From an uncultured Flavobacteriales bacterium (lineage in GTDB: Bacteria; Bacteroidota; Bacteroidia; Flavobacteriales; BACL11), in NCBI GenBank assembly GCA_905478555.1, contig CAJQIZ010000018.1, positions 42,471 to 106,470 of the forward strand: a DNA stretch of 64,000 nt. Direction: 5' to 3'. Below the pieces are notes generated by a model that did not search any database, was not told the DNA's origin, and worked only from the letters and a program-made list of their open reading frames with translations. Shown in pieces: positions 5,540 through 63,563 of this stretch. The translations under genes and the position numbers were made by a program. How positions within the stretch are numbered: position 1 is the stretch's first letter; the number at the start of each line of letters is the position of its first letter.

Positions 5540-7549
5540 TTATTCCTTAATAAATTTCTTTACAATTATTTCATTCCCAATTTGAGCTTCAACTATATAA
5601 ATTCCTTTAGAAAAATTAGAAATATCAAATGTTAAAGAATGAGAACCTATCATGTTACCATAATTTCCTTTAGCAATTAGTTTTCCTTCAATACTTTTTA
5701 CAGAAATAGAAACTTCTTTCTCAGTATCAATAGTCATTAATAGAGTACTAGTTGAAACTGCAGGATTAGGGAAGATATTTATAGAAACATTTGAAGAAAT
5801 ATTATCTACAGAAACAGGGTTATTGTTTATAGATACTGGCAAAGAAACTGCATTATCAATATTTCCATTATTTAACAACATTCCTACTACATGCATTTCA
5901 TTTATATCCCAACTAGGGTCAGCAGTAAATTGGAAGTTTGTAGTAAACACATCCCCAACATTATAAGTTGAAGATGGTAAAGATCCTCCACCAAAAGAAG
6001 GTAAAATCTCTCTTCCTACATGTCTGTAAATCATTTGTGCATCCGGAACCCATCCTGGTAAATTCATCCAGTCAACTCCATCTACATCAATTAATGAAGA
6101 ACCACCAGAATAAGAATTAGATTGGTACCAAGTACCTCCAGAACCTGTAACACTATCTTCAACTAAAACACAGGCAAAGGTCCAGTTACCACTAATTGCA
6201 GAAGTTACTGTAGTTGAAATTTCAACATCAATTATATTTGCTGAAGCAACAGCAACACCAGTGAATGTAGCAGAAATAGGAGATATAATTTTTTGTATAA
6301 ATTCCTGTTCAAATCCTGAAGGATCAATTTCTGTACCTCTATCTACAATAGCTGAAGGGTAACCTCCAATATAAGGTGATAAACCAGCATCATAAGCAGT
6401 ATTAGTCATTGGATCTCCATTATGAACCGCTATTCCCTGAAAGTAACCATAGTAATCTCTATCCATAAAATTAAGTGCAACTGCACCTCTTGGACACCAA
6501 CCACACCAAGTACCAGTAGCTTCTTCACCAATTACTAATTTTCCAGGAGTTGGTTCTATAGCAATAACATCTGTATTCATAGAATCATCTGTAGGGTCAT
6601 CATCTTGTCCTAATCCATTTACATTGGATACTGTTGCAGTACCAATATTAGTACCACCAATTAAGTTAAGAGGAGTAGTAAAGTTTACTGTAGTTCCTGT
6701 AACTGAAGGAATATTTACTCCAGTAATGTTTTCTGAAATTGTTGTTCCGTTATACAAGAAATCAACATCAAAAGAAGTAATAGTATTTATACCAAAATTA
6801 AATACATCAACAGATATATCTCTTGATTGACCAGCCAAACCACTAACTGAAGAAATAGAATTGATTTTCGCATTTAAGTTAGGAAGTATCGCGGGAGTAT
6901 AATTATAACAAATATCATCAACATAAAACTCATGACCAATAATTGGATACAAATCTAAAGATGCAATCTGATTAGTTGTATTTGTAAAGCTTCCTTGAGA
7001 CACACCATCAATAAATAACTCCCAGATATTATAAGTTAAATCTGCAACTATCTTTAACTCAAACCAGACATCTTCTGGATAAGTTGTAGTTAAAAAATTT
7101 AAACTACTTCCGGTATTCTCTAAAACTAGAGTACCTAAATCCATTTTACAATCTAAACTCCAAGTTGTTCCTGGTAAATTATCTGCTTGAAAATTAAAAT
7201 AAGCACCAGTACCAGAATTGACATAAAACATAGAAGTAAATTCAAAAACTCCTAAAACATAAGGAGTTCCGACACCAAATGGTAATACAACATCTTGCAA
7301 TCCTTGAGTAGCTCCTGAAAATAAATAAAGTGAGTTAGATCCACTGTTGGAAATCACATTAGAAACATAAGCATCATCTGCAAAAGGAGGTATTGGTGCT
7401 GTTATAGATCCCCAAGTTTCCCAATCAGTTGAAGTTTGTGCAATAGGATCCCCGTTTGAATACGAATCAAAATCTTCACAAAAACTAGCCTGAGAAGAAG
7501 CATTAAAAGCTAATAAACTAGCAAATAATAAAGTGTAAATATTTTTCAT
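5540..7549 (-). CDS. T9SS-exported Omp28-like protein with a thioredoxin-type CxxC
   Basis: A 669-residue secreted protein. The signal peptide is MKNIYTLLFASLLAFNASSQ. Residues of about 20-220 are beta-rich, with the opening SFCEDFDSYSNGDP typical of LamG/jelly-roll-like modules in such proteins. Next comes a CARDB-like Ig segment (about 225-330), then a region resembling Omp28-related proteins with GEEATGTWCGWCPRG (CGWC near 348-351), a thioredoxin-like redox motif. The C-terminal 75 residues (INIFPNPAVS to IIVKKFIKE) form a type A T9SS sorting domain. It is a single gene ending at a bidirectional terminator. A cell-surface thiol-disulfide or redox role is plausible from the CxxC but not shown. 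Confidence 0.85.
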   Translation of the reverse strand: MKNIYTLLFASLLAFNASSQASFCEDFDSYSNGDPIAQTSTDWETWGSITAPIPPFADDAYVSNVISNSGSNSLYLFSGATQGLQDVVLPFGVGTPYVLGVFEFTSMFYVNSGTGAYFNFQADNLPGTTWSLDCKMDLGTLVLENTGSSLNFLTTTYPEDVWFELKIVADLTYNIWELFIDGVSQGSFTNTTNQIASLDLYPIIGHEFYVDDICYNYTPAILPNLNAKINSISSVSGLAGQSRDISVDVFNFGINTITSFDVDFLYNGTTISENITGVNIPSVTGTTVNFTTPLNLIGGTNIGTATVSNVNGLGQDDDPTDDSMNTDVIAIEPTPGKLVIGEEATGTWCGWCPRGAVALNFMDRDYYGYFQGIAVHNGDPMTNTAYDAGLSPYIGGYPSAIVDRGTEIDPSGFEQEFIQKIISPISATFTGVAVASANIIDVEISTTVTSAISGNWTFACVLVEDSVTGSGGTWYQSNSYSGGSSLIDVDGVDWMNLPGWVPDAQMIYRHVGREILPSFGGGSLPSSTYNVGDVFTTNFQFTADPSWDINEMHVVGMLLNNGNIDNAVSLPVSINNNPVSVDNISSNVSINIFPNPAVSTSTLLMTIDTEKEVSISVKSIEGKLIAKGNYGNMIGSHSLTFDISNFSKGIYIVEAQIGNEIIVKKFIKE

Positions 7550-11594: not shown

Positions 11595-12023
11595 TTATCT
11601 TTTCATATAATAATAATGCGTAACCACATTACCTTCTTTCATTACAGTAGAATTAATAAAAGACCAACCGTATTTTGCAGCCTTATTTACAGCCTCTGCC
11701 ATAGTTCTTAACGAACGAGAATCTGACATCAGTTCTATCATTTGTTTATCTCTGTTATTACCTACATCATAAGTAACAAAAAGCTTGGAATTAGGTTTAA
11801 CTAATTCTTTCATCTGAACTTCTCTTCTGTCGGCAGATTCTTTTTCGTCTACACCTTCAGTAGCTATTATAATCTCCACTCCTTTTATAATCATAAAAGT
11901 AGCAGCAACTTCTTCTTTTACTTTTGTAGTAGTTGTCGTCTTTGTATCTTTTTTGCTTCTCTTCTGAGCTATAGTTGCAAACGGAATCGATGCAACTAAC
12001 AATAGTAATGCAATTTTTTTCAT
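11595..12023 (-). CDS. Small exported hypothetical protein
   Basis: A 142-residue protein with a clear signal peptide, MKKIALLLLVASIPFATIAQ, followed by a lysine/threonine-rich linker (KRSKKDTKTTTTTKVKEE) and a compact mixed alpha/beta region from about 40 to the end, KYGWSFINSTVMKEGNVVTHYYYMKR. No known domain is recognised. It lies 44 bases downstream of the prohibitin-like gene on the same strand and is closed by its own terminator, so it may be the last gene of that unit. The export signal predicts the periplasm or outer membrane. Confidence 0.75.
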   Translation of the reverse strand: MKKIALLLLVASIPFATIAQKRSKKDTKTTTTTKVKEEVAATFMIIKGVEIIIATEGVDEKESADRREVQMKELVKPNSKLFVTYDVGNNRDKQMIELMSDSRSLRTMAEAVNKAAKYGWSFINSTVMKEGNVVTHYYYMKR

Positions 12024-12067
12024 TTTTTAGTTTTTTAGTTTTTATTTATGTTTATTATAAAATAATT

Positions 12068-12886
12068 TTATTGTCCTCCTAATATAATAGGTAAATCACC
12101 ATCTCCGTTACCGATTACAATGACTTTAGCATTCTCTGATTTTGCAATTTCTTGTGTTGCTTCTACTCCCTTCCATTTTAGTAATTGAGGAGTAATAGTT
12201 CGGTTCACAATTTGTTGAAACGTGGCAATACCATTAGCTTCAATTTCTTTTCTTTCCGCTTCTTTTCTTGCTTTATCAATTTTAAACTCGTACTCCAACG
12301 ACTCTTGTTCTTGTTTTAATTTTTGTTCAATAGCCTTTACAAGTGTAGCTGGAAGAGTTACATCCCTAATATATATAGCAGGAAGATCAATATCTTTTTC
12401 ACTAACAATTTTTAGGGTTTGTTTATAAATTTCTTCTTCAATCTCTTTTCTTTTAGTATTATATAATTCTTCTGGCAAATAATTACCAATCACTTGTCTA
12501 GTAACTGATCTAACTGCTGGCTTAATAATCTTCTCCAGATAATTTGTCCCAAGATTATCATGTAAATATCCAATTCTATCAGCTACTGGCTTATGAAGAA
12601 TAGATAAGTCTATTTTTATAGATAACCCATTACTTGATAATACTTCCATTTTTTCGAAAGTTTCTGTTTCTTTCACATCATAAACAATCATATCGTTCCA
12701 GGGAGCTATAATATGTAATCCTTGTCCGTAAATTGTTTCCTTATCTAATCCATCTCCTAATGTCTCAAAAAGAACTCCTTTTTGTCCTGGGTTAATGGTT
12801 ATAAACATACTAGATCCGAATATGAATACTAGTACAACTCCTAATAGTCCGAAAACTACAACTCTTGGTAATCCTTGATTTTCCAT
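12068..12886 (-). CDS. Prohibitin/SPFH-domain membrane protein
   Basis: A 272-residue protein with one N-terminal membrane segment (about 8-31, VVVFGLLGVVLVFIFGSSMF) followed by the SPFH/band 7 fold, starting INPGQKGVLFETLGDGLDK, with GQGLHIIAPWNDMIVYDVK and the long coiled-coil helix KAIEQKLKQEQESLEYEFK. This is the prohibitin subgroup. Such proteins assemble into large membrane rings that modulate proteases such as FtsH and organise membrane domains. No NfeD or protease gene is adjacent; the upstream neighbour is a lipoprotein gene 25 bases away. Confidence 0.9.
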   Translation of the reverse strand: MENQGLPRVVVFGLLGVVLVFIFGSSMFITINPGQKGVLFETLGDGLDKETIYGQGLHIIAPWNDMIVYDVKETETFEKMEVLSSNGLSIKIDLSILHKPVADRIGYLHDNLGTNYLEKIIKPAVRSVTRQVIGNYLPEELYNTKRKEIEEEIYKQTLKIVSEKDIDLPAIYIRDVTLPATLVKAIEQKLKQEQESLEYEFKIDKARKEAERKEIEANGIATFQQIVNRTITPQLLKWKGVEATQEIAKSENAKVIVIGNGDGDLPIILGGQ

Positions 12887-12911
12887 AATTTTTATTTTAT
12901 TTTGTTATTAT

Positions 12912-13943
12912 TTAGTTATCTAATTGTTCTTTTAATCTTTCTGCGTCTTTCACTCTTCTTTTTAGAGTGTATATGTAGGATGTAGCTCTTTTTTCTCCCA
13001 TTTGTTCAGCTTTTTTAGCGTATTCAATTGCAGTTTGTAAGCTTCCTTTTATTTCGGAAGCTACTGCTAAGTTGAAGTATGCTTTTCTGGCAATTTTATA
13101 ATCTAAGTTTTCGGTGATGGGTTTCCATATTTCTATTGCTTGTTCCCAATCTCCTCTTTTCACATAATTTTTTGCTAATTTAAACTCCTCCCCTTTTCCT
13201 ATAAAATAGCTTCTACTTACTCTCAACCAAACAGGGGTAATTCTTAATCCGTATTGTTCTCCAGCAAAAACACCTGAAGTTTTTAATGCTTGTTGTTTTG
13301 ATGGTAACTGAGACATAGCGTCAGTATGACTACTACCCCACGATTCAAATTCTTTTACTTCTGTAAAGGTATTTACATCTACTATTTTTTTTGTGATATT
13401 ATTATAAATTCTCCACCCACTTTCTATATCCATTATTAAACTTACCGGATATCTAATTTCTTTTATTTTCGCTCCTTTTACAGTTTTAATTTTCACTACC
13501 GATTTCCCTTCAAAAGTTCGGGAATCAGAATCGAAAGTAGAAAGTACAATTATGGCATCTGCACCATAAGTTTCGCATATCGTATTTACATCTTCCCAAC
13601 TCAATATTTCAGGAAAGGTAGAAGTACCTGTTCCATTTAAAGTAATTTCACTTCCTTTTAAAGTATATCTTTCGGAGTTTTGCAACATGTCCGATAATCC
13701 TTTTACACAAAATTCCGATCCTTTTTTATCTGCTCCTATTCCTTCTCCACTAAACAAACCTTCTACTATATTTCCTACTATATTTCCTTTTCCGGCTATC
13801 GATCTGTTTACTACTATTACATTTTTAATCGACTGAGGAACGGAAATATCAGCTGGTCGTTGTACATTTACCATTACTGTAGCAGTACCACAACTTACAA
13901 ATATACTCACTACTAATAAGAAAATCAAATTTTTAAATCTCAC
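12912..13943 (-). CDS. Lipoprotein with C-terminal TPR-like repeats (DUF6340-like)
   Basis: About 343 residues. The signal sequence RFKNLIFLLVVSIFVSCG ends in a lipobox Cys, so the protein is probably lipid-anchored. It contains NVQRPADISVPQSIKNVIVVNR and a mid-section YGADAIIVLSTFDSDS, resembling the DUF6340 family as I remember it, and helical TPR-like repeats in the last 90 residues (KNYVKRGDWEQAIEIWKPI, KAYFNLAVASEIKGSLQTAI). The longest frame starts with GTG at 13964, but a -7 promoter element (13964-13971) overlaps it, so the next GTG at 13943, at the head of the signal peptide, is preferred. It precedes the prohibitin gene by 25 bases. Confidence 0.78.
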   Translation of the reverse strand: MRFKNLIFLLVVSIFVSCGTATVMVNVQRPADISVPQSIKNVIVVNRSIAGKGNIVGNIVEGLFSGEGIGADKKGSEFCVKGLSDMLQNSERYTLKGSEITLNGTGTSTFPEILSWEDVNTICETYGADAIIVLSTFDSDSRTFEGKSVVKIKTVKGAKIKEIRYPVSLIMDIESGWRIYNNITKKIVDVNTFTEVKEFESWGSSHTDAMSQLPSKQQALKTSGVFAGEQYGLRITPVWLRVSRSYFIGKGEEFKLAKNYVKRGDWEQAIEIWKPITENLDYKIARKAYFNLAVASEIKGSLQTAIEYAKKAEQMGEKRATSYIYTLKRRVKDAERLKEQLDN

Positions 13944-13963
13944 ATTATATTTTTTTAGGAGCA

Positions 13964-13971
13964 CAAAAGTA
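13964..13971 (-). promoter_or_regulatory. Candidate -7 element for the lipoprotein/prohibitin unit
   Basis: TACTTTTG on the minus strand, 20 bases before the GTG at 13943. It overlaps the first possible GTG, which decides the start. The rest of the 217-base gap up to the glycosyltransferase holds nothing else I recognise. Confidence 0.5.
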
Positions 13972-14148
13972 ACAAAACAAATAGAATAATATTATAATAT
14001 GGGTAATAAAAAAACTACGAGATTTTGGAAGCAAGTTAAAAATCTTCCTCTTTCTATTAAACAGTCTGATTATATTAACATATTACTATATACTATACTC
14101 CTATTATAAATTCAGCATTTATTACTCCAAGCAACTAACAACAATTAG

Positions 14149-14156
14149 TATCTTTG
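14149..14156 (+). promoter_or_regulatory. Candidate -7 element for the glycosyltransferase operon
   Basis: TATCTTTG followed by C, a good match to TAnnTTTG, 25 bases before the ATG at 14182. The -33 region lacks a clean TTTG. Confidence 0.5.
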
Positions 14157-14181
14157 CCTAAATCACTACAAACATTAATTT

Positions 14182-15303
14182 ATGAGAATAGGGTTAGATG
14201 CTAAGCGTGCTTTTTACAATTATACCGGTTTAGGAAACTATTCCCGTGATGCCATACGTATCCTCTCTCATTACTATCCAACAGAGGAATATTTTTTATA
14301 CAGTCCAAAAGAAAAGAAAAATAACAGATTATCATTTCTACAGCAAAGAGACAATGTTTTTGTTCGCACCCCTTTCTCCTTTTTAGGAAACCTCTTTAAA
14401 AAATATTGGAGAACTTACGATATTGTAAAAGACCTACAGCAAGACGAGATAGATGTTTTTCATGGTCTTTCCCACGAATTACCAATTGGTATAGAAAAAA
14501 CAAATATTAAATCAGTAGTCACTATTCACGATCTCATTTTTATCAGATACCCCTATTTATTTCCTTACATAGATAGGAAAATATACTTTGAAAAATTTAA
14601 ATCTGCTTGCAATCGATCCAATAAAATAATTGCCATATCTGAGCAAACAAAAGCAGATATTATAAAATACTTTGGAACCGAAAAAAACAAAATTGATGTG
14701 GTATATCAAGGTTGCAATAAAGTATTTCAATCTGAAATAGATGAAAAAACTAAAACAGACATTTGTAAAAAATATAATTTACCTACCCAATTTTTACTAA
14801 ATGTAAGTAGTATTACTGATAGAAAAAACCAACTCACAATACTCAAAGCACTATTACATCTTCCTAATCAACATCTACTTATAATTGGAGATGGGAAAAA
14901 GTACAAACAACTTTGCCAAAATTTTGTTGCCAATAACAATTTATCTTCCCGGGTTACTTTCCTTAATGATTTAAACCTTTCTGAAATGGCTGCCCTTTAT
15001 CAATCTGCTCAAATCATGATATATCCTTCCATCTTTGAAGGTTTCGGTATTCCTATTTTAGAAGCTCTATTTTCCAAAATACCTGTAATAACATCTGTAG
15101 ATAGTTGCTTTGCAGAAAGCGGAGGAAAACATTCTGTTTATATAAACCCACTAAAAGAAATAGAATTAGTAGAAGCCATTACCAAAATAAACTCCGACTC
15201 TTCTTTCCGAAACAATATGATTATTAAAGGATACCAACACGCACAAAACTTTACCGATAGTAAAGTAGCAGCAAACCTTTACAAAACCTACAAATCCTTA
15301 TAA
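14182..15303 (+). CDS. Glycosyltransferase, GT4/family 1 type
   Basis: A 373-residue GT-B glycosyltransferase, probably acting on a cell-surface or capsular glycan. The N-terminal half has MRIGLDAKRAFYNYTGLGNY and VFHGLSHELP. The C-terminal GT4 domain begins near residue 200, with FLLNVSSITDRKNQLTILKA, the donor-binding strand LLIIGDGKKYKQL, and the nucleotide-sugar motif YPSIFEGFGIPILEAL with its E-x7-E signature near 290-300. No signal peptide or membrane segment is present, so it is cytoplasmic. It heads a tight plus-strand run: the next gene starts at the base after its stop codon. Confidence 0.93.
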   Translation: MRIGLDAKRAFYNYTGLGNYSRDAIRILSHYYPTEEYFLYSPKEKKNNRLSFLQQRDNVFVRTPFSFLGNLFKKYWRTYDIVKDLQQDEIDVFHGLSHELPIGIEKTNIKSVVTIHDLIFIRYPYLFPYIDRKIYFEKFKSACNRSNKIIAISEQTKADIIKYFGTEKNKIDVVYQGCNKVFQSEIDEKTKTDICKKYNLPTQFLLNVSSITDRKNQLTILKALLHLPNQHLLIIGDGKKYKQLCQNFVANNNLSSRVTFLNDLNLSEMAALYQSAQIMIYPSIFEGFGIPILEALFSKIPVITSVDSCFAESGGKHSVYINPLKEIELVEAITKINSDSSFRNNMIIKGYQHAQNFTDSKVAANLYKTYKSL

Positions 15304-52447: not shown

Positions 52448-53392
52448 ATGAAAAACAAGAAAAAAGATAATAGAAGGCAATTTCTTAGAAACAGTTCATT
52501 AGCTGCATTATCACTTGGAATTATTCCATCAATAACAAAATCTGCAAATAATACTAATTCTACTGTTTTATGTGATGAAATTACTGAAGATTACTACGGT
52601 CAAGGCCCTTTTTATACGGTTAACGCACCTAACATACAAAACAATCAGTTGGCGGATACTAATGAGGCAGGAACTAAAATAATTATTAGCGGTCGTGTAT
52701 TCAACCTTGATTGTTCGGAAGCAATTCCAAATACTATTTTTGATATTTGGCAAGCTAATGATGCTGGAACATATGATAATTCCGGATTTAACTTAAGGGG
52801 TAAAACCGTATCTAACTCTCAAGGGTTTTATATTTTTGAAAGTATCAAACCTGGTTTATATCTGAACGGTGCAACTTACAGACCATCTCATATTCACTTT
52901 AAAATCACAACACCTTTACAATCTCCATTTACAACTCAACTTTATTTTAGCGGAGATCCTTATATTGCAAATGATGCTGCCGCGTCTATCACTTCTGGAA
53001 CATATGATGCAACAAATAGAATTATTCCACTAACGGCCAATGCAAATGGAGATTTGGAAGGGACTTGGGATGTAGTAATTAGTGGAAGTGGAATTTCTGT
53101 AGGAGATAATAATATACATCTGGACAAAGGAATGATTTATAGCGCAAGTCCGAACCCATTTAAGGATAGAGTAGAAATAAAATATGGAGTTTTTCAAGAG
53201 GGAAAAGTCAGTGTATTTGTCTACGACATACACGGAAGAGTAGTATCACAATTGGAAAAACAACAATTGATCCCTGAAAAATATGAAGTAATTTGGAAAC
53301 CAGAAAGTAAACTTCCAAATGGACATTATTTTATTGCTTTAAAAATAAATGATTTGCAAGTCCATTACATAAAAATAGTCAGAAAGAGATAA
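52448..53392 (+). CDS. Intradiol ring-cleavage dioxygenase-like protein with twin-arginine leader and T9SS tail
   Basis: 314 residues. The N-terminus has a Tat-type signal NRRQFLRNSSLAALSLGI. The middle (about 70-220) is an intradiol dioxygenase beta-sandwich. All four Fe(III) ligands are in place: Tyr109 (NDAGTYDNSG) and Tyr144, His148, His150 in GATYRPSHIHFKI. From about 233 (IYSASPNPFKDRVEIKYG to IKIVRKR) there is a type A T9SS sorting domain. This predicts folding and metal loading in the cytoplasm, Tat export, then T9SS secretion. Such enzymes open catechol-type rings; the real substrate is unknown and no aromatic-catabolism genes are nearby. Confidence 0.88.
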   Translation: MKNKKKDNRRQFLRNSSLAALSLGIIPSITKSANNTNSTVLCDEITEDYYGQGPFYTVNAPNIQNNQLADTNEAGTKIIISGRVFNLDCSEAIPNTIFDIWQANDAGTYDNSGFNLRGKTVSNSQGFYIFESIKPGLYLNGATYRPSHIHFKITTPLQSPFTTQLYFSGDPYIANDAAASITSGTYDATNRIIPLTANANGDLEGTWDVVISGSGISVGDNNIHLDKGMIYSASPNPFKDRVEIKYGVFQEGKVSVFVYDIHGRVVSQLEKQQLIPEKYEVIWKPESKLPNGHYFIALKINDLQVHYIKIVRKR

Positions 53393-53995: not shown

Positions 53996-54871
53996 ATGAG
54001 AAATTTATTCCTTATTCTAATTTTATTCTTTACATTCAATATTTCAGCACAAAAAACAGAACAATATTCTGGGGTACTTACACTTGCAAACGGGACTGTT
54101 CTTCTTTTTGAAATAGAGATAATAGAAGACAAAGGAATTGTAAACGGATTTTCTATAACTGGAAAAGGAACATCAGATGAAACAAAATCGGACTTAAGTG
54201 GAATTTTTAATAAGAATACCAAAACTTATAAATTAAAAGAAACTCAAGTTCTATCGACTAATTCAGAAGCAGACTTAAATACTTTTTGCTATATAAACAT
54301 GGAAATAAGGGAGGTAGGAAAACTGTCTCTAAAAAGGTATGAAGGAGAGTTTTTCGGACTTTTAACAAACGGAAAAGAATGTGCTAAAGGCAAAATTATT
54401 TTGATAGAAAGTGAAAAACTAGAAAAGAAAATTGCTAAAGTAAATAAGAAAATTAATAAAAAAATAGAGAAAGAAAAGAAGAAAGAAGAGAAAAAACAAG
54501 AGAAAGAAATAGAAAAAGAAGAACCTTTATTAATTACTCAAGTTTTAAAAGATGGAGATGATATGACAATAAATTGTCAATCTAATAAAATAACTATTTA
54601 CATTTGGGACGCTAATATAGAGGATGGAGATAAAGTAAATTTAACCATCAATGGTAGAGAATTACTAAACAACTTTACAACAAGAAGTAAAAGGAAGAAA
54701 ATAAAATATAAATTAAAAGAAGGGGTAAACACCATAGAAATAACAGCTACTAACCTAGGAAGTACACCACCAAATACTAGTAGAATAGAAATAGTAGATA
54801 GTAAAACAAAATATCCAATTATCACCCAATTAGAACTTGGGAAATCTGCAGTAATTAAGATTTTGAAGTAG
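53996..54871 (+). CDS. Exported hypothetical protein with KE-rich coiled coil
   Basis: 291 residues: signal peptide MRNLFLILILFFTFNISAQ; an N-terminal beta-sandwich-like part (YSGVLTLANGTVLLFEIEII to TNGKECAKGKIILIESE, about 25-140); a Lys/Glu-rich coiled coil (about 140-175, KKINKKIEKEKKKEEKKQEK); and a C-terminal Ig-like part (ITIYIWDANIEDGDKVNLTI, GVNTIEITATNLGSTPPNTS). Similar C-terminal segments occur in Bacteroidota exported proteins, but I do not recognise the family. It overlaps by 17 bases the converging CotH-kinase gene. Confidence 0.75.
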   Translation: MRNLFLILILFFTFNISAQKTEQYSGVLTLANGTVLLFEIEIIEDKGIVNGFSITGKGTSDETKSDLSGIFNKNTKTYKLKETQVLSTNSEADLNTFCYINMEIREVGKLSLKRYEGEFFGLLTNGKECAKGKIILIESEKLEKKIAKVNKKINKKIEKEKKKEEKKQEKEIEKEEPLLITQVLKDGDDMTINCQSNKITIYIWDANIEDGDKVNLTINGRELLNNFTTRSKRKKIKYKLKEGVNTIEITATNLGSTPPNTSRIEIVDSKTKYPIITQLELGKSAVIKILK

Positions 54872-57152
54872 ATTTCTTCTTTCTCCTTCGTCTAATTAAA
54901 AAAAAAAACAAGGGGATTAATATCGATCCTCCTAAAGAAGATATTACTATTCTCCTACTTTTTCTTGCTTTCAATTCTCTAATCTTAATTCCTTCTAAAA
55001 CATTTGTATATGAGTAATTATGAAATCCTATTGTAGATTGTTCTATATTCCTCCACTCTAACTTAGTTCCATCAAACTCTTCAAAAGGTATGCTTCTTGA
55101 ATAAGCCGATTTAGTTTCCTCTAACTTATAACTAACTCTATCAACTAACTGGTTTTTATTATCGTATAAAGTTATCGACTCATTAGAAGATGATAACCTA
55201 AATCCAATTTTATGATACTCAACAGAATCAATTTTATTTATAATATCAGAATAATGAAAAACAGAAAAACTCCCTTTTTTCAATAGCAAGCTATTTACCT
55301 TATATTTGTTTTTATTCTTATCCAGAATTACCCACCCTGATAGATCAAGATCTTTATCCTCTCTATTATATATCTCAAAACAATCATCAACATAATTAAT
55401 TTCATTTATTATTACATCTGTCTCAGAAAGTTTATTTTCAATAAATCTAATTGAAAGATTAAGTGTATCGCCACTTCTTGCTGTAATTGTCTTCCCCATA
55501 TAACCAACATATGAATATCCAATATCAGCTTCTATACTAATCGGTAATTCAAATTCACTATAGAAAGAACCAAAAAATGAATCTGATTTAAGTTCATTAT
55601 TATTTAAATTTACCTTACCATAATTAGGGTTCTCAATCTTCAAATCTAAATAATACGGTTTATTTAAATTAAACTTTCTTTCCAAATGTAATAATGAGAA
55701 CTCATCTCTTTCTTCAAAAAAGTTTTGTATATCTTTAATAGATTTTATCCATTTTTTATAATTACCCTGATAATTCTGAAATTTCCTTCTCTTTTTAAAA
55801 TGAATCTTCATTTCATCATCATATAAATTCTTAAATTCATTTATTCTCTCTAATGTATGTTCAGAACTTAGAGTAGAACTAAGAATAAAAGAGGATTGAT
55901 GAATAAAATCTTTCGTAAACTCTTCATTTTTCAGAAGGTTTCTTAGTAGAAAAGTAGCCCACCTTGGGTTATACCAATCTGTCATACGTTCATTAGTGAA
56001 ATCTTTTAATAAATCTGCATTCACTCTACCAGGACCACATCCTAAATCAGTATCATAAATAATCCATCTAAATTTACCATCTAATGAATCAGATTTCCAA
56101 AATCTAATGTTACCTCTTACATCATGATTAGCATAGAATATTTGATGAATCCAGAAATTTATAAAATTCCTTGTATCTATCATTTTCTGCACTTCAATAT
56201 AATTAAAATTTATCTCCAGGTTATTGTTCTGCACAAACTTTAATAATTTATTATAATCATCTGAAGTTCCTTCATCAACTGTCTTTAAACCCTGTAATAT
56301 ATCAATTCCTTCTGTTCCACAATTATAATTATTATCAATGTAATATTCATTAATCTTCTCCCTAATATTATAAATCCCCCAATACTCTGAATTAACAAAT
56401 AAATGGGATGGAGAAGAAGATTGAATATCTAAACCAGATTCTGCAGCTAAAGATGTTGAAAAAGCGTCCTTGAATCGTAATTTTCTATAGTCATTACCTG
56501 AGTGTCGTAATATAAATTGTTTGTATTTTTTCTTACCTTGATTAAATAGATTAGCATCAAATCTTGATGTTCCATACTTATTTCTAGCAATTAGCCTTAA
56601 CGATTTTTCAGGGTAATATTTAGTCATCCCTCCAAAAATTTTAATGCCAGAATTCTGAGATACAATCCTCTCTCCTTTTTCATTAAAAATCTCAACAAAA
56701 TTTTCTCTTTCCCATTTTCTTTCCCAATTTACATTTCTATAATGATTGGAAACTGTATCAAAATATGCTCTCGGTCCTTTTACATAAATGCCTTTATATT
56801 TATCAAATAAAAAATCATTGTTTATACTAATTGAAACTACCTTAAAACTAGTATTAAACCCAATAAAATAACTAAAGGATCCTAATTTACGAACAGAATC
56901 TGCATGAGAAACTAAGAGAGAAATTGTACTTGTCTTATCAACTAATAATGAATCTGGGAATGATTTTCTGTCTTTATCAATATTATTCTCATCAAAATAA
57001 AATAACTCACCTTTTTCTACATTTAATTTCAGATAAAAAGGTTCATTATAAAAACCGGATTCATGAGAAAATGAAACTACACTTGATATCTGAGAAAAAG
57101 TGAAATTCGAAACAAGAATAAAAACAAGAAAGAAAGTTCTATTATTGAACAT
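54855..57152 (-). CDS. CotH-kinase-family surface protein with lamin-tail domain
   Basis: 765 residues with signal peptide MFNNRTFFLVFILVSNFTFS. The CotH kinase domain spans about 140-440: GIKIFGGMTKYYPEKSLRL, LRHSGNDYRKLRFKDAFSTS, SPSHLFVNSEYWGIYNIREK, INFWIHQIFYANHDVRGNIR and the metal-binding WIIYDTDLGCGPG. Next comes a lamin-tail-like beta domain (DVIINEINYVDDCFEIYNRE, about 590-690), and at the end a single membrane anchor (VISSLGGSILIPLFFFLI) followed by RRRRKKK. CotH proteins of spores are protein kinases; the role here is unknown. The start overlaps by 11 bases the OmpA/phosphatase-like gene upstream. Confidence 0.88.
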   Translation of the reverse strand: MFNNRTFFLVFILVSNFTFSQISSVVSFSHESGFYNEPFYLKLNVEKGELFYFDENNIDKDRKSFPDSLLVDKTSTISLLVSHADSVRKLGSFSYFIGFNTSFKVVSISINNDFLFDKYKGIYVKGPRAYFDTVSNHYRNVNWERKWERENFVEIFNEKGERIVSQNSGIKIFGGMTKYYPEKSLRLIARNKYGTSRFDANLFNQGKKKYKQFILRHSGNDYRKLRFKDAFSTSLAAESGLDIQSSSPSHLFVNSEYWGIYNIREKINEYYIDNNYNCGTEGIDILQGLKTVDEGTSDDYNKLLKFVQNNNLEINFNYIEVQKMIDTRNFINFWIHQIFYANHDVRGNIRFWKSDSLDGKFRWIIYDTDLGCGPGRVNADLLKDFTNERMTDWYNPRWATFLLRNLLKNEEFTKDFIHQSSFILSSTLSSEHTLERINEFKNLYDDEMKIHFKKRRKFQNYQGNYKKWIKSIKDIQNFFEERDEFSLLHLERKFNLNKPYYLDLKIENPNYGKVNLNNNELKSDSFFGSFYSEFELPISIEADIGYSYVGYMGKTITARSGDTLNLSIRFIENKLSETDVIINEINYVDDCFEIYNREDKDLDLSGWVILDKNKNKYKVNSLLLKKGSFSVFHYSDIINKIDSVEYHKIGFRLSSSNESITLYDNKNQLVDRVSYKLEETKSAYSRSIPFEEFDGTKLEWRNIEQSTIGFHNYSYTNVLEGIKIRELKARKSRRIVISSLGGSILIPLFFFLIRRRRKKKSTSKS

Positions 57153-58563
57153 TTTCTATTATCTTAAACTCAATCCTTCTATCTCTTATGTCATTATAAA
57201 CAGGACTATGAGATCCATATCCTTTAACCGATATATTCGACATATCTAAACCTATATTTTGCAGATAGTTAAACACAGACTGAGCTCTTAAAGTAGAAAT
57301 ATTGTCATTAACAAAATCAGTACCAGTAGCACCATCTGCATGACCTCCTATTTCTACCATCACCTCTTTATCAGATGATAACATAAGTTTTATTTCTTGT
57401 AAAATATTTTTATCTTTATTTGTAATAACTGAACTATTTTTTTCAAAATTAATTTGGTAAGATATTTTCTGAATCTTAAATTCAATTCTTCTGTTTTCTG
57501 CACTTAACCCATCCTTCATGTCCTTCAAAACAGTTTCACCATATCCTTTATAACTTAACTGAATAGTATCTACTCCTTGACCAACTAGATAGTCGTATAC
57601 ATTTTTTGACCTCTTCTCTGACAAAGATAAATTATATGATTCAGCACCTTTTGAGTCTGTATGACCACCAACCTCAATTGACAAATAAGAATGTAATTTT
57701 AACATATTTGCATATTCATCTAAAAAAGTTGAAACAGAAGGAGGTAGATCCGATACATTAGATGGGAATCTAACTTCTACTTTTAATGATTTCAACTCTT
57801 CATTATTATTTAAAGGGACATCATTCTCCCTTGTATCTTCATAACATGGACATATAATATCACTAATTTCCTTTGGTATCTTATATTTTTCAATTGGCTG
57901 AAAATCTCTTATTGCATTTCTAATTCTATCATACCCTCTAGTCCAATTATCGGCACAATCTTCCCAGTAATGAACGCTCTTTACATTATCATATTCACAA
58001 AATTGTTTCAGCAATACAGCTGCAACGAAACCTGACTGGTGCCAACCATTCCAACAATGTAAATAGACAGGACCTACCTCCTTATTCATTATGGCATTAT
58101 AAGAAAACATTAAAATACTATCTAATTCCGAATCTGTATTACCTCCTAATTGATAATACATTAAAGAATCTCCATCATTATCATCTACTAAGTATGGAGG
58201 AGATGTTTCAAAATTTACCGTATATAAATAAACAGAAGTGGAAAAATCATTTTCCAACAAATTAGTTAAACCATCCATTGGTAGTGGGTTTTTATTATTC
58301 CTCTTATCTGATCTATGATAATAATTATTCCCACCTCCTCTATAAGCTACTCCATGTAAGATAACTCTGAAGTTTCTTGTTCCATACAAATCTTCAAATC
58401 CATTCCCTCTATTATCAGTAATTTTATCTTGAACACATTCAGCTCCATACAGAATTTTATAGTTAGTAAATTTATCAGTATTAATAAATGTAGAATCAGA
58501 TTGGGATAAACATGATGTGAAGAAAAACAGAAATACAATAAGAGAAGAGAGTGTTTTTAACAT
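57142..58563 (-). CDS. PTP-like domain fused to two OmpA peptidoglycan-binding domains
   Basis: 473 residues. Signal sequence MLKTLSSLIVFLFFFTSCLS, ambiguous between a lipoprotein (Cys18) and a cleaved signal. Residues of about 35-230 resemble a tyrosine/dual-specificity phosphatase fold: GPVYLHCWNGWHQSGFVAAV fits the HCx5R(S/T) loop with Cys170, but the essential Arg is Gln176. Then two OmpA-like domains follow: about 262-365 with VGGHTDSKGAESYNLSLSEK and KGYGETVLKD, and about 370-470 with IGGHADGATGTDFVNDNIST. Each ends in NRRIEFKI or DRRIEFKI. Likely an outer-membrane or periplasmic protein bound to peptidoglycan. In an operon with the CotH gene. Confidence 0.85.
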   Translation of the reverse strand: MLKTLSSLIVFLFFFTSCLSQSDSTFINTDKFTNYKILYGAECVQDKITDNRGNGFEDLYGTRNFRVILHGVAYRGGGNNYYHRSDKRNNKNPLPMDGLTNLLENDFSTSVYLYTVNFETSPPYLVDDNDGDSLMYYQLGGNTDSELDSILMFSYNAIMNKEVGPVYLHCWNGWHQSGFVAAVLLKQFCEYDNVKSVHYWEDCADNWTRGYDRIRNAIRDFQPIEKYKIPKEISDIICPCYEDTRENDVPLNNNEELKSLKVEVRFPSNVSDLPPSVSTFLDEYANMLKLHSYLSIEVGGHTDSKGAESYNLSLSEKRSKNVYDYLVGQGVDTIQLSYKGYGETVLKDMKDGLSAENRRIEFKIQKISYQINFEKNSSVITNKDKNILQEIKLMLSSDKEVMVEIGGHADGATGTDFVNDNISTLRAQSVFNYLQNIGLDMSNISVKGYGSHSPVYNDIRDRRIEFKIIENVQ

Positions 58564-58592
58564 ACAAGAATTTTTTTTAAATTATAATAAGA

Positions 58593-58600
58593 CAAATATA
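58593..58600 (-). promoter_or_regulatory. Candidate -7 element for the OmpA/CotH unit
   Basis: TATATTTG on the minus strand, 29 bases before the ATG at 58563. Confidence 0.45.
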
Positions 58601-58669
58601 ATTAAAAATACAGTCTTCTTTACAGAGTATAAAATCAGTTATTAACAAAAGTAATTCCTCAAATTTTAT

Positions 58670-58677
58670 TAGTTTTG
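58670..58677 (+). promoter_or_regulatory. Candidate -7 element for the vWA/OmpA gene
   Basis: TAGTTTTG, 18 bases before the ATG at 58696. With the element at 58593 it forms a divergent promoter region of about 130 bases. Confidence 0.45.
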
Positions 58678-58695
58678 ACAAATACAAATTAAAAT

Positions 58696-61600
58696 ATGAA
58701 ACATTTTAAATTATTAGTCTCTATTTTCCTTTTTTGCTCAATATCAGTAAATTCACAAAATATTTTTGAAGATATGACATTTTCCAAAAACATGAAAAGA
58801 ATTGAAAAAGGAGAACTTTCAAAAGCATTCATTAAAATTGAGAAAGCATTGTCAAAAAATGATGATGAATTAAGAAATAATTTCGCAATATCATTAATCT
58901 ACACAAACCAGGATTTTGATCAATATAGTACAAAAAATGCATATAATTTTTTATTAAAATCTGAAAAAGAATTTCACCTTATTATAGATGAAAAAACTTT
59001 AGAGAAGCTAAATAAAACTCCTATAAATGATTCTATATATCTTATTAATTTTAAAAACATTTGCAACAGAGCCTTAGAAGATGCTCTTATTATAAATAAA
59101 ATAGATCACTATAATGATTATATACAATTTTACTACAAATCATCTTTAGAAAACAAGAAAATAGCGATTAAAAAAAGGGATATAGTAGCTTTCAATACTG
59201 CCGTAATCACTCATACAATTAAATCTTATAAATATTTTATTAATAACTACCCACAAGCAGAACAAATTAATGAAGCTTGGTCTCAAATTTTCAATATTGC
59301 TTTTGATGAAGCAACATCAGTAAATACTATAAAACAATACAAAGATTTTATTTCATCTTATCCTAAAGCTCCTCAAATACCTATAGCTTCTGAAAAAATA
59401 CATATCATAGCATTTGATAATGCTAAAAGCTTAAACACATCTTTCTCTTACAAAAATTTCTTTGAAACATATCCAAACAGTACTCAATACAATGAATCTT
59501 TTAACTTATATGAATCTACACAGTTTTTAGAAAACACAAAAAATGAAGATTGGATGTCCTATCAAAAATTTATAAATAATTTTTCTTCTAATTCTAAAAT
59601 TGATCAAGCAAAAGACAGTATTTTAACTTTAGGTATAAGATATAGAAACATAGACGCTTTAGAAAGCTACATTAACAACTATTATAACAAAAGAGAATAC
59701 GCTCTAGAATATCTTTACCCATTATTCACTAAAGATGGAGAAGAAAGTACTATTAATTTATTTATAAATAAGTATGGGCAAGTTGAATCCCTGTTTGATC
59801 AGATAAATAAGGATTTATCTATTTCTTCAGAGTCTAGTCTGTTATTACTAAATCTTCCTTTTGACAAATCAAAAGAAGATGAATACAAAGAATTTATAAG
59901 AAAATCTTCTCCCTCAGAAATTGCATTTGTTACTCTGCAACGATTAATTTCATATAGCATCAATAAAAAAAGATGGAATTCAGCTTTACTAATAATGGAT
60001 GAATTTGATTCATTATTTTATAATAATCAAAACTTTATCAATCTAAAAAATATCTTAAACAGCAGTTGGGATAAATCTATTTATTCAAAATCTATAGGCA
60101 GTAAAATAAATAGATCTTCAGGGGAAGAATATGGAGCAGTAATTTCTGCAGATAATAATTACTTATATTTCTGTGGGAAAAATAAATCGTCAAATATTGG
60201 TGGAGAAGATATTTTTATGTCAAAAAATAGCAGTGGATCCTGGAGAACACCAAGAATTATTGATGACCTATCTACTATAAACTACAATGAAGCAACAGTA
60301 AACATATCTACTGACGGTACCACTCTAATCCTTTTCAAAGAAGGTAAACTGCTCTCTTCTGACAAAACAAATACAGGATGGAGTTCACCTGAAGAACTAC
60401 CCTATTCTATAAACTCTGGAAAATGGAATTCAGACGCAACAATATCTAGTGATGGATCTGCACTCATATTCGCTTCAGTTAGAGAAAATTCTAAAAATCT
60501 TTTTTCAGAAAATGAAAATCATTACCATGGTGACAATCAATATCCTTCTGATTTATTTGTTTCTTTAAAAGATAAAAATGATAATTGGGGAATACCTTTC
60601 AATATAGGAGATTCACTTAACACAAGATATACAGAAAGATCTCCCTTCCTTCATCCTGATATGAAAACTTTATATTTTAGTTCTGATGGACATGGGGGTA
60701 TGGGAAAACTAGATGTATTTATGACTACTCGACTATATGATAGTTGTTGGACTTGTTGGAGTGAACCTGTAAACTTAGGGAAAGAAATAAATACTATTGA
60801 ATCTGATTGGGGATACAAGATATCTACAGATGGTAAAACAGCATATTTTACAAAAGAAACAACGAACTATAAAAAAAATAGTTTATTGCTACTATTAGAC
60901 ATATCTGGAAGTATGAGTGGAGAGAAACTTAGGTCTTTAAAAGAAGCGGCAAAAGATGTATGTGAAAATGCAATAAATAATAACTCTAAAGTTAGTATAA
61001 TGGCATTTGAAGGAGAATGCAATTCCCCAATTGATACAATGCTGGACTTCACAAATAACATTCAAGATGTTGATAGCTTTATTAATACATTATACACACA
61101 AGGAGGGACTCCAATGTATAATGCATATATTTTAGCATCAAAACATATTTACAAGAATGCAGAACGAAATAGCAACAAAATGATTATTTTAATGACAGAT
61201 GGAGACGCTACAGATTGTGGGAAGACATTAGATGAATCATTAAGAGCTATTAGGCATAATAAAAATAAAGTACAAACCCAAACTATTGCTTTTATGGTAG
61301 ACAGTTTCAGTAAAGCCTTCAATGATTTACATGAGATATCTGACTACACTGGTGGAGAACTTTTTTATGTAGAGAACAGTAGTAATTTAAAAAGTTCCTT
61401 TTCGAAAGCAACAAACAGCTTATATGGTATGGGAACAAATAGCAATAAAAAAGATATCTACACTGTAACACTTCCAGTCCACTTAAGACCTGATTTAGTT
61501 GCAACAGTTGAGGGGAAATTACTAGACTCTGATAGTGTTCCTATAAATGCAAAAATACGATTTGAAGACTTAGAAACAAACAAACTTATAGGCAAGATAA

Positions 61601-62121
61601 AAAACAACCCAGAAGATGGAAGTTATTTTATTGTTTTACCTTTAGGGAAACTTTATGGACTATACGTAGATAAGGATGAGTATTTTCCCATTTCTGGAAA
61701 TATAGACCTAAGAAATGAAAAACAGATAATTAAAATAGAAAATAATATACCTCTTTATACTTTTAAAGAAATGATCGAAAAAGGTATTGCTGTACCAATA
61801 AACAACATATTTTTTGACTCAGGACTTAGTGAGTTAAAGGATTATTCATTACCTGAATTAAAAAGAATATCCAAGATAATTATTGAAAATAATTTGACAG
61901 TTGAACTTAGTGGACATACAGATAATATAGATACTGAAGAATTTAATTTGAAACTCTCTGAAGATAGATCGAATGCGGTAAAGGAATTTTTAGTAAATTA
62001 CGGGTGTGATGAAAATAAAATTATCACTATTGGATATGGAGAGAGTAATCCTCTTAATAATAACTCTAACAGTTCAGAACGGAAAAAGAACAGAAGAGTA
62101 GAATTTAGATTTATTAAATAA
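58696..62121 (+). CDS. Multidomain PD40 / vWA / OmpA envelope protein
   Basis: 1141 residues with signal peptide MKHFKLLVSIFLFCSISVNS. About 140-340 holds roughly 40-residue helical repeats of the type YKxFIxxYPxAxQ (SYKYFINNYPQAEQIN, QYKDFISSYPKAPQIP). About 470-720 has PD40/WD40-like beta strands (GEEYGAVISADNNYLYFCGK, ISSDGSALIFASVREN, TLYFSSDGHGGMGKLDVF). A vWA domain spans about 730-910, with the metal-site DISGSMSGEKL and IILMTDGDATDCGK. A CarboxypepD_reg-like sandwich lies near 925-990, and an OmpA domain at about 1025-1141 (VELSGHTDNIDTEEFNLKLS, KKNRRVEFRFIK). Probably an outer-membrane-tethered peptidoglycan-binding scaffold. Confidence 0.9.
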   Translation: MKHFKLLVSIFLFCSISVNSQNIFEDMTFSKNMKRIEKGELSKAFIKIEKALSKNDDELRNNFAISLIYTNQDFDQYSTKNAYNFLLKSEKEFHLIIDEKTLEKLNKTPINDSIYLINFKNICNRALEDALIINKIDHYNDYIQFYYKSSLENKKIAIKKRDIVAFNTAVITHTIKSYKYFINNYPQAEQINEAWSQIFNIAFDEATSVNTIKQYKDFISSYPKAPQIPIASEKIHIIAFDNAKSLNTSFSYKNFFETYPNSTQYNESFNLYESTQFLENTKNEDWMSYQKFINNFSSNSKIDQAKDSILTLGIRYRNIDALESYINNYYNKREYALEYLYPLFTKDGEESTINLFINKYGQVESLFDQINKDLSISSESSLLLLNLPFDKSKEDEYKEFIRKSSPSEIAFVTLQRLISYSINKKRWNSALLIMDEFDSLFYNNQNFINLKNILNSSWDKSIYSKSIGSKINRSSGEEYGAVISADNNYLYFCGKNKSSNIGGEDIFMSKNSSGSWRTPRIIDDLSTINYNEATVNISTDGTTLILFKEGKLLSSDKTNTGWSSPEELPYSINSGKWNSDATISSDGSALIFASVRENSKNLFSENENHYHGDNQYPSDLFVSLKDKNDNWGIPFNIGDSLNTRYTERSPFLHPDMKTLYFSSDGHGGMGKLDVFMTTRLYDSCWTCWSEPVNLGKEINTIESDWGYKISTDGKTAYFTKETTNYKKNSLLLLLDISGSMSGEKLRSLKEAAKDVCENAINNNSKVSIMAFEGECNSPIDTMLDFTNNIQDVDSFINTLYTQGGTPMYNAYILASKHIYKNAERNSNKMIILMTDGDATDCGKTLDESLRAIRHNKNKVQTQTIAFMVDSFSKAFNDLHEISDYTGGELFYVENSSNLKSSFSKATNSLYGMGTNSNKKDIYTVTLPVHLRPDLVATVEGKLLDSDSVPINAKIRFEDLETNKLIGKIKNNPEDGSYFIVLPLGKLYGLYVDKDEYFPISGNIDLRNEKQIIKIENNIPLYTFKEMIEKGIAVPINNIFFDSGLSELKDYSLPELKRISKIIIENNLTVELSGHTDNIDTEEFNLKLSEDRSNAVKEFLVNYGCDENKIITIGYGESNPLNNNSNSSERKKNRRVEFRFIK

Positions 62122-62126
62122 TAACA

Positions 62127-63563
62127 TTACTTATTACCAATACCAATCATCAGTCGATTACCATATTCTGAAGGAATGAATGTCACAGAGTAGTTAATAT
62201 TTTTTGAATTATTTAATGCAAAAGAATAAGTACTTGTAAATTCACCAAAAGACCACATTACTCCATATCCTAACTCAAGATCATCTTTTGTTAATCCTAA
62301 TGCTAATGAAGACTCAAACAATGTTGGACCTTTTTTAAATATTGCCCCTATGTTTGCATCTAATTTAGAAACAATCCCAAATTCTTCATTATTCCACCAG
62401 GGTGTTCTTAATTGATAACCATATTGCGCATAAGAAGATAAACGATTGGTATATACATTGTCATTAGAATATATTATCTTATTAGGATTTCCAGTTCTAA
62501 CATAATCTGCATTCCAACCACCTACTATTGAATAACTAAATCTAAAATTATTTATCCAAAAATCGTTATTATGCTTTTTATAAAAATCCTTATACCATTC
62601 ATAAAAACCCTTTACAGGTGGAAGAGGATTAGGATTAGGAAAAGGTGGTGAAATGGGTTCAATTACTAGGTTTTCATCACAATTATAATTTCCAGGAATC
62701 AGACTATATGCATAATCAATCGTATGAATATCGGAGTACTTTACCCAGAAATAACCATCATCTCCCCAATTATCTCCCCAACTGTTCATGACCTCAAAAG
62801 CTCCTCCAAATTTACTGTCATCATATCCAACGATACAAAGTGCGTGACCTCCACTTCTATTAAAATGATATGTTTTTCTGTTTCGAGTAATGAATTTCCA
62901 TTCTCCAGATTCTGAAATATATTCTGGATATAATGAATTTCCTTTACCTGGAATATCATATACATGCATAGCAATCACGACAGGCTCATTATTATCTAAT
63001 GCTACTTTAATATTATTTACTCCTAATTCTCCCTGACAATTTAATGTTCTAAAATTATATAATTTATTATAATATTTATTATCTTCAGTATCTTTTTTAC
63101 AAATATTATTATAATCTTGATATTCTGGAGAACCATAATTCTTTAACAAGTTTAAAGCATCTCTTGGCGATGAACCAGCACAATCATTCTGATAAGGATA
63201 ACGATCTGTCTTTATCTTATTATATGTGCTTAATGGAGAAAAAGGACCTATCTTATTCTTACATTCAATTCTTCTAACAATAGTAAACGCTGCATATGTA
63301 GTAGCCCATCCAGTACATGATCCTACTTGACCTTGATCACCCATATCAGGACAAAATTTCTTTAAAGATACCGCATTAGACAGTCCTCCTCTTTTAATTG
63401 GTAAGTCTTCTTTCTTAAATTTTTTCTCTATTTCAGGATCTATTATACATCCATCAAAGACAAGTTTTTCCTTAACTTTATTTTTATCATTTCCTCTTGA
63501 AAAATAGTCCTGTCCAAATCCAATCAAAGGCACGCATAATAGTATAAGTAACATTTTCTTCAT
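62127..63563 (-). CDS. Papain-like (C1) cysteine peptidase with beta-rich tail
   Basis: 478 residues with signal peptide MKKMLLILLCVPLIGFGQ. The peptidase spans about 60-290: oxyanion and nucleophile in DQGQVGSCTGWATTYAAF (Cys83), catalytic His in GGHALCIVGYDD (near 240), Asn in VMNSWGDNWGDDGYFWVKY (near 261). A Pro-rich linker (ISPPFPNPNPLPPVKGFYEW) leads to a C-terminal 140-residue beta-rich part (FRFSYSIVGGWNADYV, LNNSKNINYSVTFIPSEYGN, RLMIGIGNK) that could be a small membrane barrel or a surface anchor. No T9SS domain is seen. Convergent with the vWA/OmpA gene (5-base gap). Its -7 element lies 4 bases before the ATG. Confidence 0.9.
   Translation of the reverse strand: MKKMLLILLCVPLIGFGQDYFSRGNDKNKVKEKLVFDGCIIDPEIEKKFKKEDLPIKRGGLSNAVSLKKFCPDMGDQGQVGSCTGWATTYAAFTIVRRIECKNKIGPFSPLSTYNKIKTDRYPYQNDCAGSSPRDALNLLKNYGSPEYQDYNNICKKDTEDNKYYNKLYNFRTLNCQGELGVNNIKVALDNNEPVVIAMHVYDIPGKGNSLYPEYISESGEWKFITRNRKTYHFNRSGGHALCIVGYDDSKFGGAFEVMNSWGDNWGDDGYFWVKYSDIHTIDYAYSLIPGNYNCDENLVIEPISPPFPNPNPLPPVKGFYEWYKDFYKKHNNDFWINNFRFSYSIVGGWNADYVRTGNPNKIIYSNDNVYTNRLSSYAQYGYQLRTPWWNNEEFGIVSKLDANIGAIFKKGPTLFESSLALGLTKDDLELGYGVMWSFGEFTSTYSFALNNSKNINYSVTFIPSEYGNRLMIGIGNK

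Follow-up and report, generated by a model that had tools for sequence, protein, structure and literature searches.

A CotH-family kinase gene paired with a gene for a phosphatase-fold protein that has lost the catalytic arginine in Bacteroidota

This study concerns a stretch of 64,000 nucleotides (hereafter the window) from an uncultured Flavobacteriales bacterium (assembly GCA_905478555.1, contig CAJQIZ010000018.1, here C18; genome of 1.79 Mb in 44 contigs, completeness estimate 98.98%), and in particular two of its genes, one for a CotH-family kinase and one for a phosphatase-fold protein. An earlier reading of the letters alone, the original prediction, had placed these two with two neighbours in one putative envelope system, and the positions that it gave for the four open reading frames (ORFs) are all confirmed. 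The CotH gene (54855-57152, minus strand, 765 aa) encodes a hydrophobic start that is a predicted signal peptide, the CotH domain, a lamin-tail domain and a predicted C-terminal transmembrane helix followed by RRRRKKK. The gene called PTPO here (57142-58563, minus strand, 473 aa) encodes another hydrophobic start predicted to be a signal peptide, a phosphatase-fold domain and two OmpA domains, and its last 11 bases (57142-57152, minus strand) are also the first 11 of the CotH gene, exactly as had been stated. Beside them lie VWAO (58696-62121, plus strand, 1141 aa), a PD40/vWA/OmpA protein, and PAP (62127-63563, minus strand, 478 aa), a papain-like protease; the window stops at the end of its contig, and the view of genes ends at PAP.

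The conserved unit at this locus is CotH plus PTPO, two genes and not four. A scan of genome contigs, sorted by ORF search and protein length, gave 64 loci with a related phosphatase-fold (PTP) domain. All 15 PTP-OmpA genes among them (L007-L021), including those of all five congeners, have a CotH gene directly downstream, the two genes overlapping in 11 cases, abutting in 3 and standing 5 bases apart in 1 (the CotH genes of L018 and L019 are cut by the contig end). Ten further loci (L052-L054, L057, L062-L066 and L069) encode fusions 1061-1185 aa long, in which the CotH domain precedes the PTP domain, and in L067 a CotH gene is followed, 79 bases on, by a PTP-LysM gene. Six PTP-LysM genes (L055, L056, L058-L061) stand without CotH in the flanks available, and one PTP locus of the 64, L068, lies on a cut contig. 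The CotH-PTP-LysM architecture belongs to a lineage other than that of the window: a protein search that used only the PTP region of one fusion returned 35 clusters of 655-1196 aa, of which precomputed domains assign CotH to 34 and LysM to 32, the sole CotH-less cluster being a 655-aa piece on a 2.5-kb contig. The wall anchor varies (OmpA, LysM or both) while the PTP domain is constant. That CotH and PTPO are chance neighbours might be argued from the abundance of CotH in Bacteroidota (77 of 395 class genomes match a CotH profile at 1e-60), but it is hardly credible and is refuted by the 15/15 adjacency in differing surroundings, by the two gene orders and by the fusions; we hold the pairing to be very probably real. 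In L065 a transglutaminase-like gene (6486-7505; PF01841, E 2e-10) ends 17 bases before the CotH-PTP-LysM fusion gene.

Samples drawn independently of the motif were also searched, by running a profile of 36 PTP domains (A1) on evenly drawn genomes, our own included. The phylum sample gave matches in 6 of 395 genomes: our own, G214 and four that belong to a different family in the same phylum. Seven of 395 matched in the class sample: our own, G759, which holds a fusion, G214, in which the PTP gene overlaps a CotH gene by 4 bases, G657, and three weak ones (1e-9 to 9e-6) that keep the arginine of the motif (HCWHGSDRTG, HCFHGSNRTG and HCWGGIGRTG). The order sample gave 8 of 395, six of our own genus together with G833 and G839, both PTP-CotH pairs; G759 corresponds to the genome of L057, G833 to that of L014 and G839 to that of L013, and they add no new loci. 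One collection of PTP rows was assembled without L068, L096, copies fetched a second time and the short loci of these samples (L089-L092, L094, L104, L105, L109-L115).

Trees of the kinases agree with a linked lineage. With 44 CotHs (the short rows of L018, L019 and L093 left out, and L088 below threshold), all 26 that are PTP-linked or fused fall in one clade of 28 (support 100/99), whose other two members are L082 and L065_0, the latter truncated at the edge of its locus, and the 16 unlinked CotHs lie outside. A second, harder tree of 43 rows, a chosen subset with 18 rows of the linked kind to which the top-scoring unlinked CotHs of the class sample were added, recovered the linked clade again with 100/99. 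Its 24 rows are the 18 linked ones, four CotHs of the genomes of L056 and L058-L060, in which a PTP-LysM gene stands elsewhere, L065_0, and the second CotH of the L012/L055 genome; 18 of 18 unlinked CotHs and the CotH of G657 fall outside it. A profile of the linked CotH type (A4), run on 38 genomes, matches four of the five genomes with PTP-LysM alone at 1.3e-155 or below and the fifth (L061) partially; the L055 genome, which is also the assembly of L012, has its best match in the CotH of that L012 pair, and the L068 genome gave no match. A ranking of the 395 class genomes by A4 was tried, and its top four are the four strong PTP genomes, yet it gives no support because rows of the profile were taken from three of these, and the CotH of the fourth, G657, lies outside the linked clade. 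The proposed link between kinase-like and phosphatase-like domains with peptidoglycan anchoring is strongly supported by the 15/15 adjacency, the fusions, and the one clade that holds every PTP-linked CotH put into the two trees. The genome of L146 (the same assembly as L012 and L055) looks as if it held the module twice: there are two CotHs of the linked clade and two genes of the PTP family, one of each in the L012 pair, with L055 and L146 standing apart.

Above-threshold Pfam matches bear out the domains originally named for CotH, VWAO and PAP. In the window CotH the kinase domain covers residues 170-485 (55698-56645, minus strand; PF08757, E 1.3e-37, 130.5 bits against a cut-off of 23.8) and the lamin-tail domain residues 577-676 (55125-55424, minus strand; PF00932, LTD, E 1.1e-14). 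A search of the PDB with the single sequence gave no match, and a profile was needed: the 27-row CotH profile (A3) matches B. cereus CotH 5jd9 at E 8.2e-12. Asp344 (56121-56123, minus strand) and Asp367 (56052-56054, minus strand), invariant across the 27 rows, align with D224 and D247 of the 5jd9 chain, by positions counted by hand on the printed profile alignment, and we take them as equivalent to D228 and D251 of B. subtilis, the spacing being 23 in all three proteins; changes at D228 and D251 are described as inactivating in the accessible part of PMC7821199. The CotH fold was seen in a structure model of the fused relative L063, not of the window protein, with 5jd9 as the best PDB match (E 1.4e-11, TMt 0.74) and with lamin tails and phosphatases as lower-ranked matches; the predicted template modelling score (pTM) of this model, 0.64, is too low for the domain arrangement or an interface. 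A hydropathy scan predicts the C-terminal transmembrane helix at residues 735-751 (54900-54950, minus strand), ahead of the basic tail, and 11 of the 14 complete pair CotHs, the window's included, have such a predicted helix, each followed by at least one Lys or Arg. Among the fusions, a helix is predicted ahead of the PTP domain in 10/10 and a second one in 7/10 at the threshold used. The protein resembles the spore-coat kinase CotH of B. subtilis and B. cereus (5jd9/5jda) in its CotH domain, in its fold (on the fused relative) and in both catalytic Asp, and differs from it by the predicted signal peptide, the lamin tail, usually a C-terminal membrane helix, and a phosphatase-fold partner or fusion. 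Other architectures also occur in this family. In G214, the CotH that is paired with PTP (L095, 10266-13301) closes, as judged by eye, with a second membrane-spanning pair and some 220 residues that match nothing in Pfam. The CotH of L082 (1229-4630), which belongs to the linked clade, forms one protein with a multi-helix LPG_synthase_TM domain (PF03706, E 3.5e-35); L126 and L127 are alike by eye. The PTP-LysM gene of these genomes stands elsewhere, and lipid-linked substrates are a possible implication of such fusions.

PTPO had been described as a phosphatase fold with two OmpA domains. The OmpA part stands by Pfam (two stretches, E 1.3e-33), with domain 1 at residues 266-352 (57508-57768, minus strand; PF00691) and domain 2 at about residues 367-457 (57193-57465, minus strand; the second Pfam stretch, with NCBIfam NF045788 at 367-457), both of the peptidoglycan-binding type. 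The phosphatase match in Pfam is sub-threshold (Y_phosphatase2, 19.9 bits against a cut-off of 27), and this part stands by the structure model: residues 19-238 (57850-58509, minus strand), modelled by AlphaFold2 with a predicted local distance difference test score of 93.7 and a pTM of 0.91, have PDB matches that support a PTP/DSP fold despite the weak Pfam match.

The P-loop of this domain, HCWNGWHQSG (residues 169-178; 58030-58059, minus strand), has Gln176 at the place of the catalytic Arg of phosphatases, so that the arginine of CX5R is a glutamine in PTPO. The HCX5R arginine by which cysteine phosphatases are recognised is found in 0 of 216 readable relatives, the position being taken variously by Q, M, A, S or G, with no single residue required there, while the P-loop Cys and Gly are kept in 215/215 proteins and the Ser/Thr in 214/215. 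These counts come from protein searches on many words, which may favour word-sharing members, and one of them covers the best 120 of 787; the set of 215 leaves out three canonical phosphatases and four near-copies and includes L095, whose P-loop has M. A count from the 64 fetched loci alone was dropped as biased, because HCWNGWHQ was a fetch pattern. R45 and R57 (numbered on the first row of A1) are invariant across the 36 rows; residues 96-151, the expected place of the general acid, hold no invariant Asp or Glu, and D187 elsewhere is nearly invariant. The retained Cys, Gly and Ser/Thr together with the two invariant arginines could fit an active phosphatase with a rewired pocket, in which another conserved Arg (of the GTRNxR or YRGG motif) or the invariant P-loop His would replace the lost one and the pair would be a kinase with its eraser. 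The loss of the arginine in every readable member, its unconstrained replacement and the lack of an invariant Asp or Glu in that interval argue against this main rival, which we judge unlikely. The family also reaches outside Bacteroidota, with a bare HCWNGWHSSG protein (P0204) that its source names Bdellovibrio bacteriovorus.

Several known phosphatase-fold proteins invite comparison. The atypical dual-specificity phosphatases PFA-DSP and Siw14 share 16-18% identity with PTPO, which departs from them in the missing catalytic Arg and in its predicted export and wall tethering; of their P-loop HCxxGxHRxG (read from the alignment) it keeps the His and has the Arg replaced. P. aeruginosa TpbA is a working periplasmic phosphatase, and its YfiBNR setting differs from ours in that the six window proteins scanned contain no diguanylate cyclase (GGDEF) domain. 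PRL phosphatases bound to CNNM transporters are, in the accessible part of the source, enzymatically active, and they have a different partner. PTPO resembles the pseudophosphatases (STYX, MK-STYX and the inactive myotubularins) in that a PTP fold carries an altered HCX5R. PMC8269279 makes a mutated HCX5R part of the definition of these proteins and describes anchoring, competing and modulating roles for the known members; it also states that the Arg is retained in STYX-domain proteins and that the Cys is absent from MK-STYX. The PTPO family, by contrast, keeps the Cys and loses the Arg, and is bacterial, predicted to be periplasmic and coupled to a kinase; judged from its sequence, the mutated HCX5R makes the PTPO domain a putative pseudophosphatase.

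We propose, with about an even chance of being right, that CotH and PTPO are an envelope kinase and a wall-tethered pseudophosphatase partner that would bind the phosphorylated product. CotH would be held in the inner membrane by its predicted C-terminal helix, facing the periplasm, and the PTP domain would be seated on peptidoglycan through OmpA or LysM; in the fusions, the double helix with a basic turn between CotH and PTP would keep both in the periplasm. CotH would phosphorylate an envelope protein or the wall, and the pocket without arginine may read or hold this product, or CotH itself, at the wall, leaving the phosphate in place. The binding role taken by itself we rate at even or slightly below. 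Several observations weigh against this proposal. The nucleophilic Cys is invariant, and a pure binder would not need it; the periplasm is not expected to contain ATP; and the C-terminal helix is missing from 3 of the 14 complete pair CotHs (L013, L014 and L016). In addition, 31 of the 64 loci are bare PTP genes of 236-276 aa with no CotH in the available flanks (L022-L051, L070), so the PTP domain also has a role without CotH; these 31 genomes lack the linked CotH type, their best A4 match being 7.4e-89, and G657 has an A-type PTP-OmpA gene without CotH within 7 kb, its best CotH lying outside the linked clade. A hidden PTP-CotH fusion in the bare-PTP genomes was looked for and rejected, as long CotH frames gave no PTP match; four such frames resemble, by eye, secreted LTD-CotH proteins with sorting tails.

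The target may also be other than a protein. If CotH phosphorylated a cell-wall glycan or another small molecule and the PTP-fold pocket bound it, the peptidoglycan-binding modules on the PTP side would find a use, as would the CotH-LPG_synthase_TM fusion of L082, and the structure of Siw14, which ranks with the closest folds, has a title naming it a PP-IP phosphatase. PFA-DSP1, too, has inositol pyrophosphates among its substrates. On the other side, OmpA and LysM may serve for positioning only, and characterised CotH, in the accessible part of PMC7821199, phosphorylates proteins; such a target seems to us more doubtful still than the rewired phosphatase. A bolder idea, which we regard as a long shot, is that the HCWNGWHxSG pocket has a new phosphate chemistry, a long-lived phosphocysteine or a held phosphate carrier, exchanging phosphate with CotH across the gap between inner membrane and wall; if true, this would be an extracytoplasmic phosphorelay, and it would explain from where a kinase outside the cytoplasm draws its phosphate or where it stores it.

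CotH-family kinases are widespread, and spores and fungi are the main subject of the open-licence CotH literature that we found. Among the open-licence papers listed, none concerns a partnership between CotH and a phosphatase, which does not show its absence from print. Through this pair, one lineage of CotH has a phosphatase-fold partner of its own, backed by gene fusions; the pair also defines an unusual P-loop family in which nearly all is kept but the arginine, and makes envelope phosphorylation in Bacteroidota directly testable.

As for the two neighbours, Pfam finds PD40 (6.6e-13), VWA (5.4e-15) and OmpA (6.3e-18) in VWAO and Peptidase_C1 (9.8e-15) in PAP; both genes lie outside the two-gene unit. 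They were surveyed in our own genome and 59 others (5 congeners, with assemblies 79-97% complete, 31 of the same family and 23 of the same order). PTPO at 1e-20 is found in 5 of the 59, which are the five congeners, with CotH directly downstream in 5/5, and a CotH match at 1e-20 is found in 11. VWAO at 1e-60 occurs in 0/59 and PAP in 0/5 congeners, with partial PAP matches in 4/59 genomes (best 1.2e-27). The left side of the window (the gene at 53996, one at 51058 that we read by eye as Mpl-like, and others) recurs in the congeners as far as their contigs reach, and upstream of PTPO, where the window has VWAO and PAP, the congeners carry genes read in the same way as PlsY- and ClpS-like. The expected recurrence of the four genes together thus failed, and the four-gene system is not supported; the kinase-phosphatase core is. 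A single extracytoplasmic signalling system of all four could appeal to relatives of VWAO, present at 1e-60 in 9 of 34 PTP-bearing genomes searched against 0/59 around our own: in L054 a full-length one (11622-14957, 37% identical) follows the CotH-PTP-LysM fusion at about 400 bases, and in L053 the contig that carries the fusion has another at a distance of about 12 kb. Against it, in the five congeners, all of which retain the pair, neither VWAO nor PAP was found, and the flanks of the 64 loci hold no PAP relative beyond a signal-peptide match in L009, so that the PAP part is largely refuted and the whole very improbable; VWAO keeps a weak claim to membership through its adjacency in L054. 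L009 has further extra genes in the slot upstream of PTPO, among them a 128-aa ORF (1992-2378) whose start is near-identical to that of PAP over about 18 residues, which hints at recombination. VWAO shares PD40 and OmpA domains with the PorE / CHU_0125 proteins of the type IX secretion system and is unlike them in scoring 115.5 of 600 and 147.2 of 620 bits (NCBIfam cut-offs) and in having a vWA domain between these domains. Anti-phage defence (Zorya ZorB, PADLOC) was rejected, since the best stretches lie in the OmpA parts, except for one weak row from PTPO residue 231.

On the other side of the pair, a gene convergent with CotH (53996-54871) shares 17 bases with the end of the CotH gene. Its 291-aa product has a Lys/Glu-rich stretch, and 4 of 5 congener loci have a relative at the corresponding position, the fifth being L008, whose contig stops there. 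Further left, 52448-53392 encodes an intradiol-dioxygenase-like protein with a twin-arginine-like start, below the cut-off, and a type IX secretion tail (PF18962, 34.1 bits).
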